Assembly: GCA_013177825.1 (NCBI GenBank)
Contig: JABLXX010000001.1
Span: 458,936-522,935, forward strand
Origin: Syntrophaceae bacterium
GTDB lineage: Bacteria > Desulfobacterota > Syntrophia > Syntrophales > PHBD01
Reading direction: 5' to 3'
Length of the DNA: 64,000 bases
The notes below the pieces were generated by a model, which made no database searches, was not told the origin of the DNA, and saw nothing but the letters and a program-made list of their open reading frames with translations. Both the position numbers and the translations under genes were made by a program. Within the stretch, counting starts at the first letter, position 1, and each line of letters begins with the position of its first letter. Below are positions 54,009 through 57,124 of the stretch, piece by piece.

Positions 54009-55352
54009 CTACAGGGGCTTGTTGCCCCCGTCACCGTGGAAGATCGGCAGGGGCAGGTGCCTCCGGCGGGTCTCGCCGTAGAGGACCGTCCGCTCGCGGA
54101 CGGTGGGGGCGCCCCGCTTTCCCTTGCCCTGCTCCTCGATGAGGTGGGAGCCTCCCAGGTGGAGGGCGTGCTTGCCGTATTTCGCTCCCATTGCGTCGGC
54201 CGCCTCGTAGAGCCGCTCGACCCGCTCCGCCCGGAGGGCGTCCTCGAAAAGGGAGTACTGGACCTGCGCGTCCGGCACGAGGTCCAGGAGGACGATGCCC
54301 GTGGCCCGGTAGAGAACGTGACGCTCCCACAGGCCGCCGAAGGCGTCCCGGAGGACTCCCGAGATCTCCAGCGGATAGACCGACGGGCGGGTGAGGCGCA
54401 CCTCCGCGGCGGCGAGGGAGAAGTTCTGCCGCTTGAGGAAGAGGACGAGGCTCCGGGGCGCCAGGTCGTAGCGCCGGGCCTTGATGCAGGCCGACTCGAG
54501 ATTCCGGAGGAGTTGAGCGAAGAGGTAGTCCGGGTCCGCCGAGGGCGGGGCGAAGGTCTTCGTCTTGCTGATGGAGAAGTAGGTGCTCTTCTCTTCCGCC
54601 GTGACGGGATAGACCGATTCCCCCCGGATCTCCCGCCAGATCTCGACGCCCGGCTTGGTGAGGCGCCGCTTCACCGTCTCCTCGGGGAGGCGGGCGAACT
54701 CCAGGGCCGTCCGGACCCCCATCTTGTTCAGGTAGTTCGTGGTGGCGGGGCCGATGCCCCAGAGCTTCCCCACCGGCAGGTCCCGGAGGTAGGAGGCGAT
54801 GGCTCGGCCGGGGATGACGGTGAACCCGTCGGGCTTCCGGTGCTTCGAGGCCGCCTTGGCGAGGACCTTCGTGAGGCTGAGCCCCGCGGAGACGGTGATT
54901 CCCAGCTCCTTGATGATCTCCCTCCGGATCCGGTCCGCGATGGCCTCGTAGGAGGCCCGGAGGGCCCGGCGCATGCCCGTGAGGTCGGCGAAGGCCTCGT
55001 CGATGGAGTACTCTTCCACGTCGGGGGTGTAGCGCCGGATGATGTTGAACATCCGGCGGGAGAAGAGGCTGTAGGTCTCGTAGTCCGAGGGGAGGACGAT
55101 CAGCCCCGGGCAGATCCGCTTCGCCTCCGGCAGGGAGACGCCCCGCTTGATCCCGATCCGCTTGGCGGCGTAGCTGGCGCAGGCCACGATGCCCCGCTCG
55201 CCCCCGGTGATGAGGGGCTTCCCGCGCAGCTCCGGGTGGATGGCTTCCTCGCAGGAGGTGAAGAAGGCGTCCCCGTCGACGTGGAGGATCGCCCGGGGCC
55301 ACGAGGAGAGGCTGAAAAGGATGTCGTCGGTTCTGCCGCCGGAGGGCGCCAC
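54009..55352 (-). CDS. dinB: Y-family DNA polymerase (DinB/Pol IV-like)
   Basis: A 447-residue translesion polymerase. Motifs: ILHVDGDAFFTSCEEA (first catalytic Asp), YAAKRIGIKRGVSL, EEYSIDEAFADLTG (catalytic Asp-Glu pair), the HhH segment LWGIGPATTNYLNKMG and the little-finger domain. Typical length for a UmuC/DinB with a C-terminal tail (GKRGAPTVRER). It starts at GTG 55352; 159 bases lie upstream before umuD, including a strong terminator. The pairing with umuD suggests a pol V-like role in SOS mutagenesis. Confidence 0.92.
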   Translation of the reverse strand: MAPSGGRTDDILFSLSSWPRAILHVDGDAFFTSCEEAIHPELRGKPLITGGERGIVACASYAAKRIGIKRGVSLPEAKRICPGLIVLPSDYETYSLFSRRMFNIIRRYTPDVEEYSIDEAFADLTGMRRALRASYEAIADRIRREIIKELGITVSAGLSLTKVLAKAASKHRKPDGFTVIPGRAIASYLRDLPVGKLWGIGPATTNYLNKMGVRTALEFARLPEETVKRRLTKPGVEIWREIRGESVYPVTAEEKSTYFSISKTKTFAPPSADPDYLFAQLLRNLESACIKARRYDLAPRSLVLFLKRQNFSLAAAEVRLTRPSVYPLEISGVLRDAFGGLWERHVLYRATGIVLLDLVPDAQVQYSLFEDALRAERVERLYEAADAMGAKYGKHALHLGGSHLIEEQGKGKRGAPTVRERTVLYGETRRRHLPLPIFHGDGGNKPL

Positions 55353-55439: not shown

Positions 55440-55492
55440 AAAAGCCCTTCCCGCCGCGGAGTGGCGGGGGTGGAGCGCCCGGCGGGAAGGGC
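55440..55492 (-). terminator. strong hairpin with T-tract between umuD and the Y-family polymerase
   Basis: On the minus strand GCCCTTCCCGCC (55492-55481) pairs perfectly with GGCGGGAAGGGC (55455-55444) and is followed by TTTT. It lies 20 bases after the umuD stop. If efficient, the polymerase would need partial read-through or its own promoter. Confidence 0.65.
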
Positions 55493-55511: not shown

Positions 55512-55949
55512 TTACTTGTGATACTTGCGGACCACCGCGGTCACCACGCCGCCGAGGCGCAGCTCCGACCGGGGGACGACGGGTGCATCCTTCGGGTCGG
55601 CCGTCCGGAGAACGACGCGCCCCTTCTCCCGGCAGAAGTACCGGAGGAGCCACGCCCCGTCCGCCTCCACCAGGACGACGTCGCCGTGTCTCGGAACCCG
55701 CCCCCGCTCGATGATGACGAGATCCCCCTTCCGGATCCCCTCGCCGATCATGGAGTCGTCTTTTGCCTGCACGAGGAAGGACGCGTCGGGGAAGGGCACG
55801 AGATACTCGTCGAAGGAGAGGATGTCCCGGAGTTCCTCCTCCGCCGGGGAGGGAAAACCGGCCCGGACCTCTCCTGCCAGGGGAAGCATCCGGCCGGGGC
55901 CGGCGGGGGAGATCGGGACTGCGGTTTCGGCGATTCGTTTCTCGTCCAT
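55512..55949 (-). CDS. umuD: UmuD-like S24 family protein (catalytic Lys replaced by Arg)
   Basis: A 145-residue LexA/UmuD-fold protein. RAGFPSPAEEEL carries the cleavage site A30-G31, equivalent to C24-G25 of E. coli UmuD; the nucleophile is S66 in DDSMIGEG (S60 there). With the same constant offset of six, the catalytic Lys 97 corresponds to residue 103, which is Arg (AWLLRYF). Self-cleavage may be slow or absent. There is no DNA-binding domain. ATG at 55949 with GGAAGG upstream; an earlier TTG would place the operator inside the gene. It precedes a Y-family polymerase, as umuDC. Confidence 0.88.
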   Translation of the reverse strand: MDEKRIAETAVPISPAGPGRMLPLAGEVRAGFPSPAEEELRDILSFDEYLVPFPDASFLVQAKDDSMIGEGIRKGDLVIIERGRVPRHGDVVLVEADGAWLLRYFCREKGRVVLRTADPKDAPVVPRSELRLGGVVTAVVRKYHK

Positions 55950-55961
55950 GGCCTTCCATTT

Positions 55962-55985
55962 ATAGAACGATCGTTCTATTGTCAA
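55962..55985 (-). promoter_or_regulatory. umuD promoter with LexA-box-like operator
   Basis: ATAGAACGATCGTTCTAT (55962-55979) is a perfect 18-bp palindrome with the GAAC-N4-GTTC core of Gram-positive-type SOS boxes. On the minus strand TTGACA (55985-55980) is immediately before it, and TATAAA follows at a 15-base spacing. The operator therefore occupies the spacer of the promoter, typical for repression by LexA. It also lies 75 bases upstream of xth on the other strand. Confidence 0.75.
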
Positions 55986-56052: not shown

Positions 56053-56838
56053 ATGGCCCTGTTCCGGATCGCCACCTACAACGTCAACTCCATCCGCTCC
56101 CGCCTCCACATCCTGCTGCCCTGGATCGAGGCGAACCGCCCCGACGTCCTGTGCCTTCAGGAGACCAAGGTGGACGACGCCCGGTTTCCCGCCGGCGACT
56201 TTACGGCCCTGGGCTACCGGGCCGCCTTCCGGGGCGAGAAGCAGTACAACGGCGTGGCGGTGCTGTCCCTCGAAGAGCCGCGGAGCGTGTCCTTCGGCAT
56301 CGACGACGGGGGGCCCCGGGACGAGGACCGCCTGATCCGGGCCGACTTCGGGAAGCTCACGGTGATCAACGCCTATGTCCCCCAGGGGCGGGATCGGGAA
56401 ACGCCGCATTTTGCCTATAAGCTTGAATGGTTCCGGCGCTTTCGGGACGGCCTGGAGCGGAGCCTGTCGCCGGAGACGCCCCTTGCATGGGTCGGCGACC
56501 TGAATGTCGCGCCGGAGTCCATCGATGTCCACGACCCGAAGCGCCTCCTGGGGCACGTCTGCTTCTGCCCGGAGGTGTGGGAGGCCTTCCGGGGCGTCAC
56601 CTCCTGGGGGCTCCTCGATGTTTTCCGGAAGCATCACCCCGGCGAACCGAAGCAGTTCAGCTTCTTCGATTACCGCATGCCCAAGGCGGCGGAGCGGGGG
56701 CTGGGCTGGCGGATCGACCACATCCTGGCCACGGCGCCCCTGGCGGCGAAGTCCGTCCGCTGCGACATCGACCTGGGGCCGCGGATGGCCGAGAAGCCGT
56801 CGGATCACACGGTGGTTCTGGCGGAATTTGAAATCTGA
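56053..56838 (+). CDS. xth: exodeoxyribonuclease III
   Basis: A 261-residue Mg-dependent nuclease of the EEP family for base-excision repair: AP endonuclease and 3' phosphodiesterase activity. ATYNVNSIRSRL, LQETKVDD (metal Glu), NAYVPQG, GDLNVAPE, the RIDHILAT catalytic Asp and SDHTVVLAEF are in order. ATG at 56053; AAGAGGAAA upstream. Divergent from umuD across the LexA-like box, so it may share SOS control. Confidence 0.95.
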   Translation: MALFRIATYNVNSIRSRLHILLPWIEANRPDVLCLQETKVDDARFPAGDFTALGYRAAFRGEKQYNGVAVLSLEEPRSVSFGIDDGGPRDEDRLIRADFGKLTVINAYVPQGRDRETPHFAYKLEWFRRFRDGLERSLSPETPLAWVGDLNVAPESIDVHDPKRLLGHVCFCPEVWEAFRGVTSWGLLDVFRKHHPGEPKQFSFFDYRMPKAAERGLGWRIDHILATAPLAAKSVRCDIDLGPRMAEKPSDHTVVLAEFEI

Positions 56839-56841
56839 CGC

Positions 56842-56963
56842 GGGCTGTTGAAAAAGGGCCGTCTGCTGCGTTCCCCTTGCCCTTCGCCATTCGACGTACC
56901 AGAAAGTACGACTCATGGCTCAGGACTGTGGGTGCCTTGCATCCAACCCTTTTTGAACAGCCC
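56842..56963. repeat. imperfect palindromic intergenic element, copy B
   Basis: A 122-bp palindrome just after xth. Arms GGGCTGTTGAAAAAGGG (56842) and CCCTTTTTGAACAGCCC (ending 56963) are near-perfect inverses. The core has GACGTAC (56893-56899), six bases, GTACG (56906-56910). It is followed after 19 bases by copy C. Confidence 0.85.
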
Positions 56964-56982
56964 TAAGAGGTATTTTTTTCAG

Positions 56983-57108
56983 GCGGGCTGTTGAAAAAGC
57001 GCCGCCTGCGGCGTTTCCCTCATCCCTTGCCACTCGACGTACCAAACCGTACGCCTCGCGGCTCGGGATTTCGGGCGCCTCGCAGCCGGCCGGTTTTGAA
57101 CGGCCTGC
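56983..57108. repeat. imperfect palindromic intergenic element, copy C
   Basis: A 126-bp palindrome in tandem with copy B. Arms GCGGGCTGTT and AACGGCCTGC pair with two wobbles; the core GACGTAC (57036-57042) and GTACG (57049-57053) is separated by 6 bases. Its sequence differs from copy B outside the core and inner arms, so it is not a simple recent duplication. Confidence 0.85.
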
Positions 57109-57124
57109 AGGGGGAGAGGAAGCG

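Follow-up and report, generated by a model that had tools for sequence, protein, structure and literature searches.

The minus strand of the window, the whole 64,000-nucleotide stretch of DNA analysed here from a 4.24 Mb source genome (G000), carries at positions 55512-55949 (stop codon included) an uninterrupted reading frame for a stand-alone S24 (LexA/UmuD-type) domain protein of 145 aa. We took the ATG at 55949 as its start codon; an alternative TTG 12 codons upstream is possible. The protein belongs to the Pfam Peptidase_S24 family (PF00717), with a score of 68.4 bits at a cut-off of 23.3, and a phmmer search against the PDB returned E. coli UmuD at 5.8e-14 and LexA proteins from 4.4e-12. 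A gene for a Y-family DNA polymerase of 447 aa (54009-55352, minus strand; GTG start as listed, provisional) follows on that strand, 159 bp downstream as listed. The segment between the two genes contains a 13-bp perfect inverted repeat (55444-55492, with arms at 55444-55456 and 55480-55492), which is unchanged in the sister species G001. On the upstream side, an SOS-box-like palindrome, AGAACGATCGTTCT, occupies positions 55964-55977, at a distance of 14 bp from the S24 ATG. The same palindrome is also upstream of a divergent gene (56053-56838, plus strand), named from a reading of its sequence as putatively exonuclease III-like, which may be damage-induced too. Beyond this gene (about 56840-57110), inspection by eye showed two similar stretches that start with GGGCTGTTGAAAAAG.

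The pattern AGAACNNNNGTTCT occurs at four places in the genome, namely upstream of the S24 gene, 13 bp before the ATG of the likely lexA, before a dinB-like gene whose product is 32% identical to the window's polymerase, and at one site with a different centre. Since the reversed control pattern is found at three places in the same genome, it is the position of the box and not its count that carries weight. The S24 gene and the lexA of its own genome thus have a predicted box in common, as is expected within an SOS regulon. The sister species keeps the palindrome with a changed centre. Among relatives, the 420 nt that precede the matched domain contain GAACNNNNGTTC (GAACN4GTTC) in 72/85 S24 genes, compared with 1/85 for the reversed pattern, and it is present upstream of 30 of the 35 polymerase-linked S24 genes.

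When aligned with the E. coli proteins, the window protein has its residues 30, 31, 66 and 103 opposite residues 24, 25, 60 and 97 of UmuD, so the constant offset of +6 described in an earlier note on this DNA is right. The same note had assigned a cleavage site to Ala30-Gly31 and the nucleophile to Ser66, and both align with their E. coli counterparts: the Ala-Gly pair (codons 31-30, 55857-55862, minus strand) with Cys24-Gly25 and the Ser of codon 66 (55752-55754, minus strand) with Ser60. At the position of the catalytic Lys97, codon 103 (55641-55643, minus strand) reads CGG; translation and alignment confirmed that an Arg encoded in a clean frame stands at the general-base position. A change from Lys to CGG needs two base changes. 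With Ser66 present and Arg at residue 103, the protein lacks the residue pair that defines an active Ser-Lys peptidase.

The question of whether relatives have the same Arg, also raised in the earlier note, has a clear answer. The S24 protein of G001, which is of the same genus and is the only other species of the family in the genome set compared, is 94% identical and has the same Arg103 encoded by the same CGG codon; a plain sequencing error was rejected on the basis of this shared codon. We compared 87 distinct S24 sequences, of which 55 came from named genome contigs and 32 from a genome search (window and sister included; the relatives from the genome scan are the best 80 of 388). All 87 have the equivalent of Ser66 and the Ala-Gly site, 85 have Lys at the base position, and the two with Arg are the window protein and its sister. 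Lys is likewise present in 60/60 further loci of the order (46 new, the rest shared with the earlier set and so partly the same genes), picked mostly among the lower-scoring matches of an order-wide search that gave S24 matches in 127/155 genomes; in the phylum, 314/395 genomes had a match. A wider set of 65 viral loci and 90 from the phylum has Lys in 153/155, a survey that on the phylum side favours intact UmuD because it drew largely on top-scoring hits of the UmuD model. Arg103 occurs in only two species and derives from one common ancestor. Within the open-access papers searched, we found no printed case of a natural Arg at the base position of a UmuD-like protein.

Other departures from the catalytic pair were seen in UmuD-like proteins of this wider set. 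One, L281 (genome G408, same phylum; L285 449-973), is independent of the window protein and has its nucleophile Ser replaced by Ala and its base Lys by Arg. Its congener L286 3589-4047 keeps Ser and Lys, and no polymerase gene was recognised by eye in the surroundings of L281, where the contig starts close by. On viral contigs, L188 1480-1821, which ends at the locus end, shows Asp at the nucleophile position and Glu at that of the base, and L186, L187, L192 and L194 have Cys for the nucleophile Ser (GWCM) with Lys kept. A viral source of the window protein was rejected, as a viral scan with this protein returned no relative; nor was there a close relative among 38 phage records and the 5000 best plasmid records, where all identities were below 60%.

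Comparison of the window with its sister revealed that the two parts of the protein evolve differently. Residues 22-145 differ by 4 non-synonymous and 11 synonymous changes, which gives a dN/dS of 0.12 (binomial p = 0.0002 against neutral change). The N-terminal arm, residues 1-21 (55887-55949, minus strand), which occupies the place of the helix-turn-helix (HTH) of most relatives, differs by 7 non-synonymous and 2 synonymous changes (dN/dS 1.35, from few changes), and the contrast between arm and domain has a Fisher p of 0.033 on these small numbers. The domain is thus maintained and the arm is drifting. As the same Arg is present in both species of the genus and the domain is under purifying selection, Arg103 is a real, inherited change and not a product of chance. 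A decaying gene without function would account for the drifting arm and for the long stem branch of the pair in the S24 tree (0.98 changes per site), but the frame is open in both species, the domain has been selected against amino acid change and the palindrome has been kept in the sister, so that we regard simple decay as quite improbable.

We then considered the surroundings of the catalytic residues. The catalytic core segments of the superfamily, as given in PMC12984324, correspond in UmuD to residues 55-60 (nucleophile), 95-98 (base strand) and 109-116 (Omega). Using these zones, and taking as conserved any position with at least 90% identity in the 85 relatives, we found that 7/10 conserved core positions are changed in the window protein compared with 6/50 elsewhere (Fisher p = 0.0004). 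Restricting the count to fully invariant positions gave 4/7 in the core and 2/24 outside it (p = 0.014). The seven core changes are V62A, G64D, T101L, K103R, A116T, N118D and Y121D; V62, G64 and T101 show no variation in the 85 relatives, and N118 and Y121 each vary in one. The picture of a single Lys-to-Arg swap drawn in the earlier note is not supported, because G64D, T101L, N118D and Y121D also hit the nucleophile, base and Omega zones, and Arg103 is one of several losses there. Of the other lysines of the window protein that might take over the base role, Lys63 has an equivalent in one of the 85 relatives, Lys109 in three and Lys120 in 59.

Core changes are otherwise rare, with none in 78 of the relatives, one in six and three in L084. 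The L084 protein, which is linked to a polymerase and has no HTH, has A116T and Y121D in common with the window protein, and L310 has the same kind of Omega-zone change (N118G, Y121D). Both are HTH-less LexA-type proteins that keep the Lys and have Gly and Asp for the conserved Omega Asn and Tyr. Together with the window pair they indicate core decay in two HTH-less lineages. The other HTH-less relatives that were read keep the Lys and the Omega residues.

A plasmid with the E. coli mutant LexA K156R is described as uncleavable and SOS-deficient in PMC5760743, which cites Lin and Little (1988). Because Arg103 is accompanied by the loss of G64, T101, N118 and Y121, and given the LexA precedent, self-cleavage of the window protein is unlikely, and its self-protease is likely to be dead or nearly so, as judged from the sequence. 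The expectation of weak or absent self-cleavage from the Arg is therefore likely to hold. The earlier note had also raised a shifted pH dependence and a stronger need for RecA, which would point to an altered but working protease with Arg103 still able to act, if weakly, as the general base when the pH is high or on contact with RecA. This would agree with the retention of Ser66, the cleavage site and the fold, but it has to accommodate both the uncleavable LexA mutant and the changes at V62, G64, T101, N118 and Y121, which makes it distinctly unlikely.

The LexA/UmuD fold is kept, as judged from one AlphaFold model and one structure comparison. The model has a mean pLDDT of 70.4; ten-residue blocks within residues 61-140 average 85-92, and residues 1-42 are of low confidence (mostly below 50, in 1-25 and 27-42). 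Comparison of the model with solved structures gave E. coli UmuD' (1ay9) as the best match (Z 13.4, rmsd 2.6, 101 aligned residues), followed by LexA entries (Z 9.1-12.7), lambda CI and the phage 186 CI repressor (Z 8.7).

The identity of the protein within this fold is less straightforward. With its short arm, its stand-alone S24 domain and a Y-family polymerase gene as same-strand neighbour, it has the form and setting of UmuD. However, the name UmuD used in the earlier note could not be upheld: the score against the NCBI UmuD model (NF007621) is 84.4 bits at a cut-off of 110, and among the best 80 of 388 relatives the closest proteins outside the genus are of LexA type, belong to Syntrophales and their kin (mostly Syntrophaceae, Smithella or Deltaproteobacteria) and are 54-65% identical. 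The protein is not a canonical LexA either, with 66.7 bits against TIGR00498 (cut-off 110.95) and without the N-terminal DNA-binding domain, and it reaches 40.2 bits against the NCBIfam HumD model (cut-off 120). Judged by a few short motifs and by eye, the HTH is present in 75/87 distinct sequences, absent in 11 (window and sister among them) and cut off in one. A polymerase match is found within 3.5 kb downstream in 37/87, two of these matches being only 36-39% identical to the window's polymerase. Within these 37, HTH and Lys occur together in 27, Lys without HTH in seven, one sequence is cut off, and the remaining two are the window protein and its sister. We rejected the possibility of a missed in-frame HTH: the 24 open codons before the ATG are too few, and the divergent gene starts about 100 bp further on. 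Elsewhere, L349 1950-2381 encodes an HTH-less S24 protein of 143 aa whose catalytic residues are intact. A gene close to it appears from its sequence to encode an SRAP/HMCES family protein, and that contig has no match to the window's polymerase.

In the S24 tree, which was built from few columns and has 26/89 inner branches starred, the window pair sits on its long stem among polymerase-linked, HTH-bearing proteins. Its nearest neighbour is L091 (84/87, not starred), and the smallest larger starred set has 13 rows (95/88). In the polymerase tree the nearest sequence is that of L102, also HTH-bearing (85/83, not starred). Neither fork is starred, and L091 and L102 are both candidates for the nearest HTH-bearing gene. 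The HTH-bearing L091 protein begins MKPVRTAETV, followed by the HTH and then by SLPLAGEV, and the G001 protein begins MDERRTAETA and passes almost directly into VLPLAGEV, with no HTH between. Because the sister's start resembles that of L091 and LPLAGEV then resumes, the DNA-binding domain was probably lost by internal deletion, the exact ends of which are inferred from the sequences. A single origin of all HTH-less relatives was rejected on the polymerase tree (51.67 lower, p-AU 0.0004). On the S24 tree, with its long branches, the one-clade constraint came out 11.96 log units better than a free quick search (p 0.78). HTH loss beside a polymerase may therefore have occurred more than once, which the polymerase tree supports and the S24 tree does not.

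LexA dimerises through its C-terminal domain. A LexA-type domain that lacks an HTH and whose gene has a box like that of lexA could pair with LexA to form one-headed dimers, weakening repression and prolonging the response. We consider such modulation of the SOS circuit improbable because the neighbouring polymerase is a simpler partner.

Taking together the observed sequence, the absence of an HTH present in most kin, the core changes, the selection on the domain and the box, we propose that the S24 protein is an SOS-induced, LexA-derived, UmuD-like accessory subunit of the neighbouring polymerase that acts independently of cleavage, its self-protease being dead or nearly so. We give this explanation a probability of roughly one in two. 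The ancestor would have been a repressor of the LexA kind whose gene lay next to that of a Y-family polymerase. Its DNA-binding domain would have been lost in the genus, probably by internal deletion, and its self-protease core dismantled by the changes K103R, G64D, T101L, N118D and Y121D, in an order that we infer. What remains would be a UmuD'-type folded domain, probably a dimer, that is co-expressed with the polymerase when DNA damage frees the upstream box of LexA and that most likely serves the enzyme as a cleavage-independent UmuD' mimic. Of the options offered in the earlier note, function without processing fits best. Somewhat more tentatively, it may be that HTH loss from a lexA-polymerase operon turned a repressor into a polymerase subunit and so gave a UmuD'-like factor free of proteolysis, with the mutagenesis checkpoint gone and control exerted by transcription alone.

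Other observations argue against the accessory-subunit explanation. Several HTH-less relatives keep the catalytic core, and Ser66 and Ala30-Gly31 are retained in the window protein, with a conserved stretch after the site, as if cleavage still mattered. The Arg is confined to two species with a common ancestor, the genome-wide count of the box (4) is barely above that of its reversed control (3), and the model has low confidence over residues 1-42. The retained Ala-Gly would be explained by cleavage in trans, which is the main rival on this point: if the protein formed mixed dimers with its genome's own LexA, which has the Lys, the active site of LexA would cut A30-G31 and processing would survive. 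This LexA (G000 C2) has both residues of the Ser-Lys pair and shares 58% identity across the domain, and when E. coli UmuD S60A is in a mixed dimer, the other subunit provides the active site that cuts the arm of the mutant (PMC5342242). The drift of the arm before the site (dN/dS 1.35, few changes) is nevertheless a poor fit with docking into an active site, and we regard cleavage in trans as unlikely.

E. coli polymerase V is held back by slow UmuD self-cleavage. A form that is not cleaved need not be a UmuD' mimic, because the non-cleavable E. coli UmuD(K97A) retains UmuC at the membrane and is a strong inhibitor of mutagenesis by pol V (PMC4552617). An uncleaved E. coli UmuD variant with a short arm showed low but detectable mutagenesis, which was read as partial mimicry of UmuD' (PMC5342242). 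As its arm is unconstrained, the window protein would fit the picture of the short-arm variant better than that of K97A.

The fold and setting of the window protein are ordinary; what is unusual is that a missing HTH and a lost self-protease core occur together. If our explanation is true, the locus would be a natural polymerase operon with a cleavage-dead UmuD-like partner, whose kin keep both the cleavage machinery and the DNA-binding domain. The purpose of the UmuD proteolytic step could then be asked directly, and a route would be shown by which UmuD-like factors arise from LexA.

Among known systems, E. coli UmuD/UmuD' of pol V is similar in being a stand-alone S24 protein with a short arm encoded before a Y-family polymerase, in its fold (1ay9, Z 13.4) and in the aligned Ser and cleavage-site positions. 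The window protein differs in being closer to the LexA-type proteins of Syntrophales and kin, in having Arg for Lys97 and in its altered catalytic zones. HumD of phage P1 is known as a UmuD'-like factor that needs no cleavage and has no arm; the window protein has one and scores far below the HumD family cut-off. Phage 186 CI is a repressor with a DNA-binding domain. It resembles the window protein in its LexA-type fold (PDB 2fjr; model match Z 8.7) and in the Arg at the base position, which is Arg152 in PMC12984324, where the second half of its nucleophile segment is described as missing. In contrast, the window protein keeps the Ser and lacks the HTH. The delta-proteobacterial LexA-polY operons share with the window a LexA-type gene followed by a Y-family polymerase and a box upstream, although HTH and base Lys are both absent here and present in most polymerase-linked kin. 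In Geobacter sulfurreducens the arrangement is a lexA-imuB-C-polY operon with a polymerase of the GeoPolY-like group (PMC6511836), whereas the 159-bp gap in the window would leave too little room for an imuB-C gene. Finally, UmuDAb of Acinetobacter is a self-cleaving repressor with an N-terminal domain that binds DNA (PMC4807011). Like the window protein, it is of LexA/UmuD type, is linked with umuC and has shifted its role within the family, and the role change at the window locus would have run in the opposite direction.
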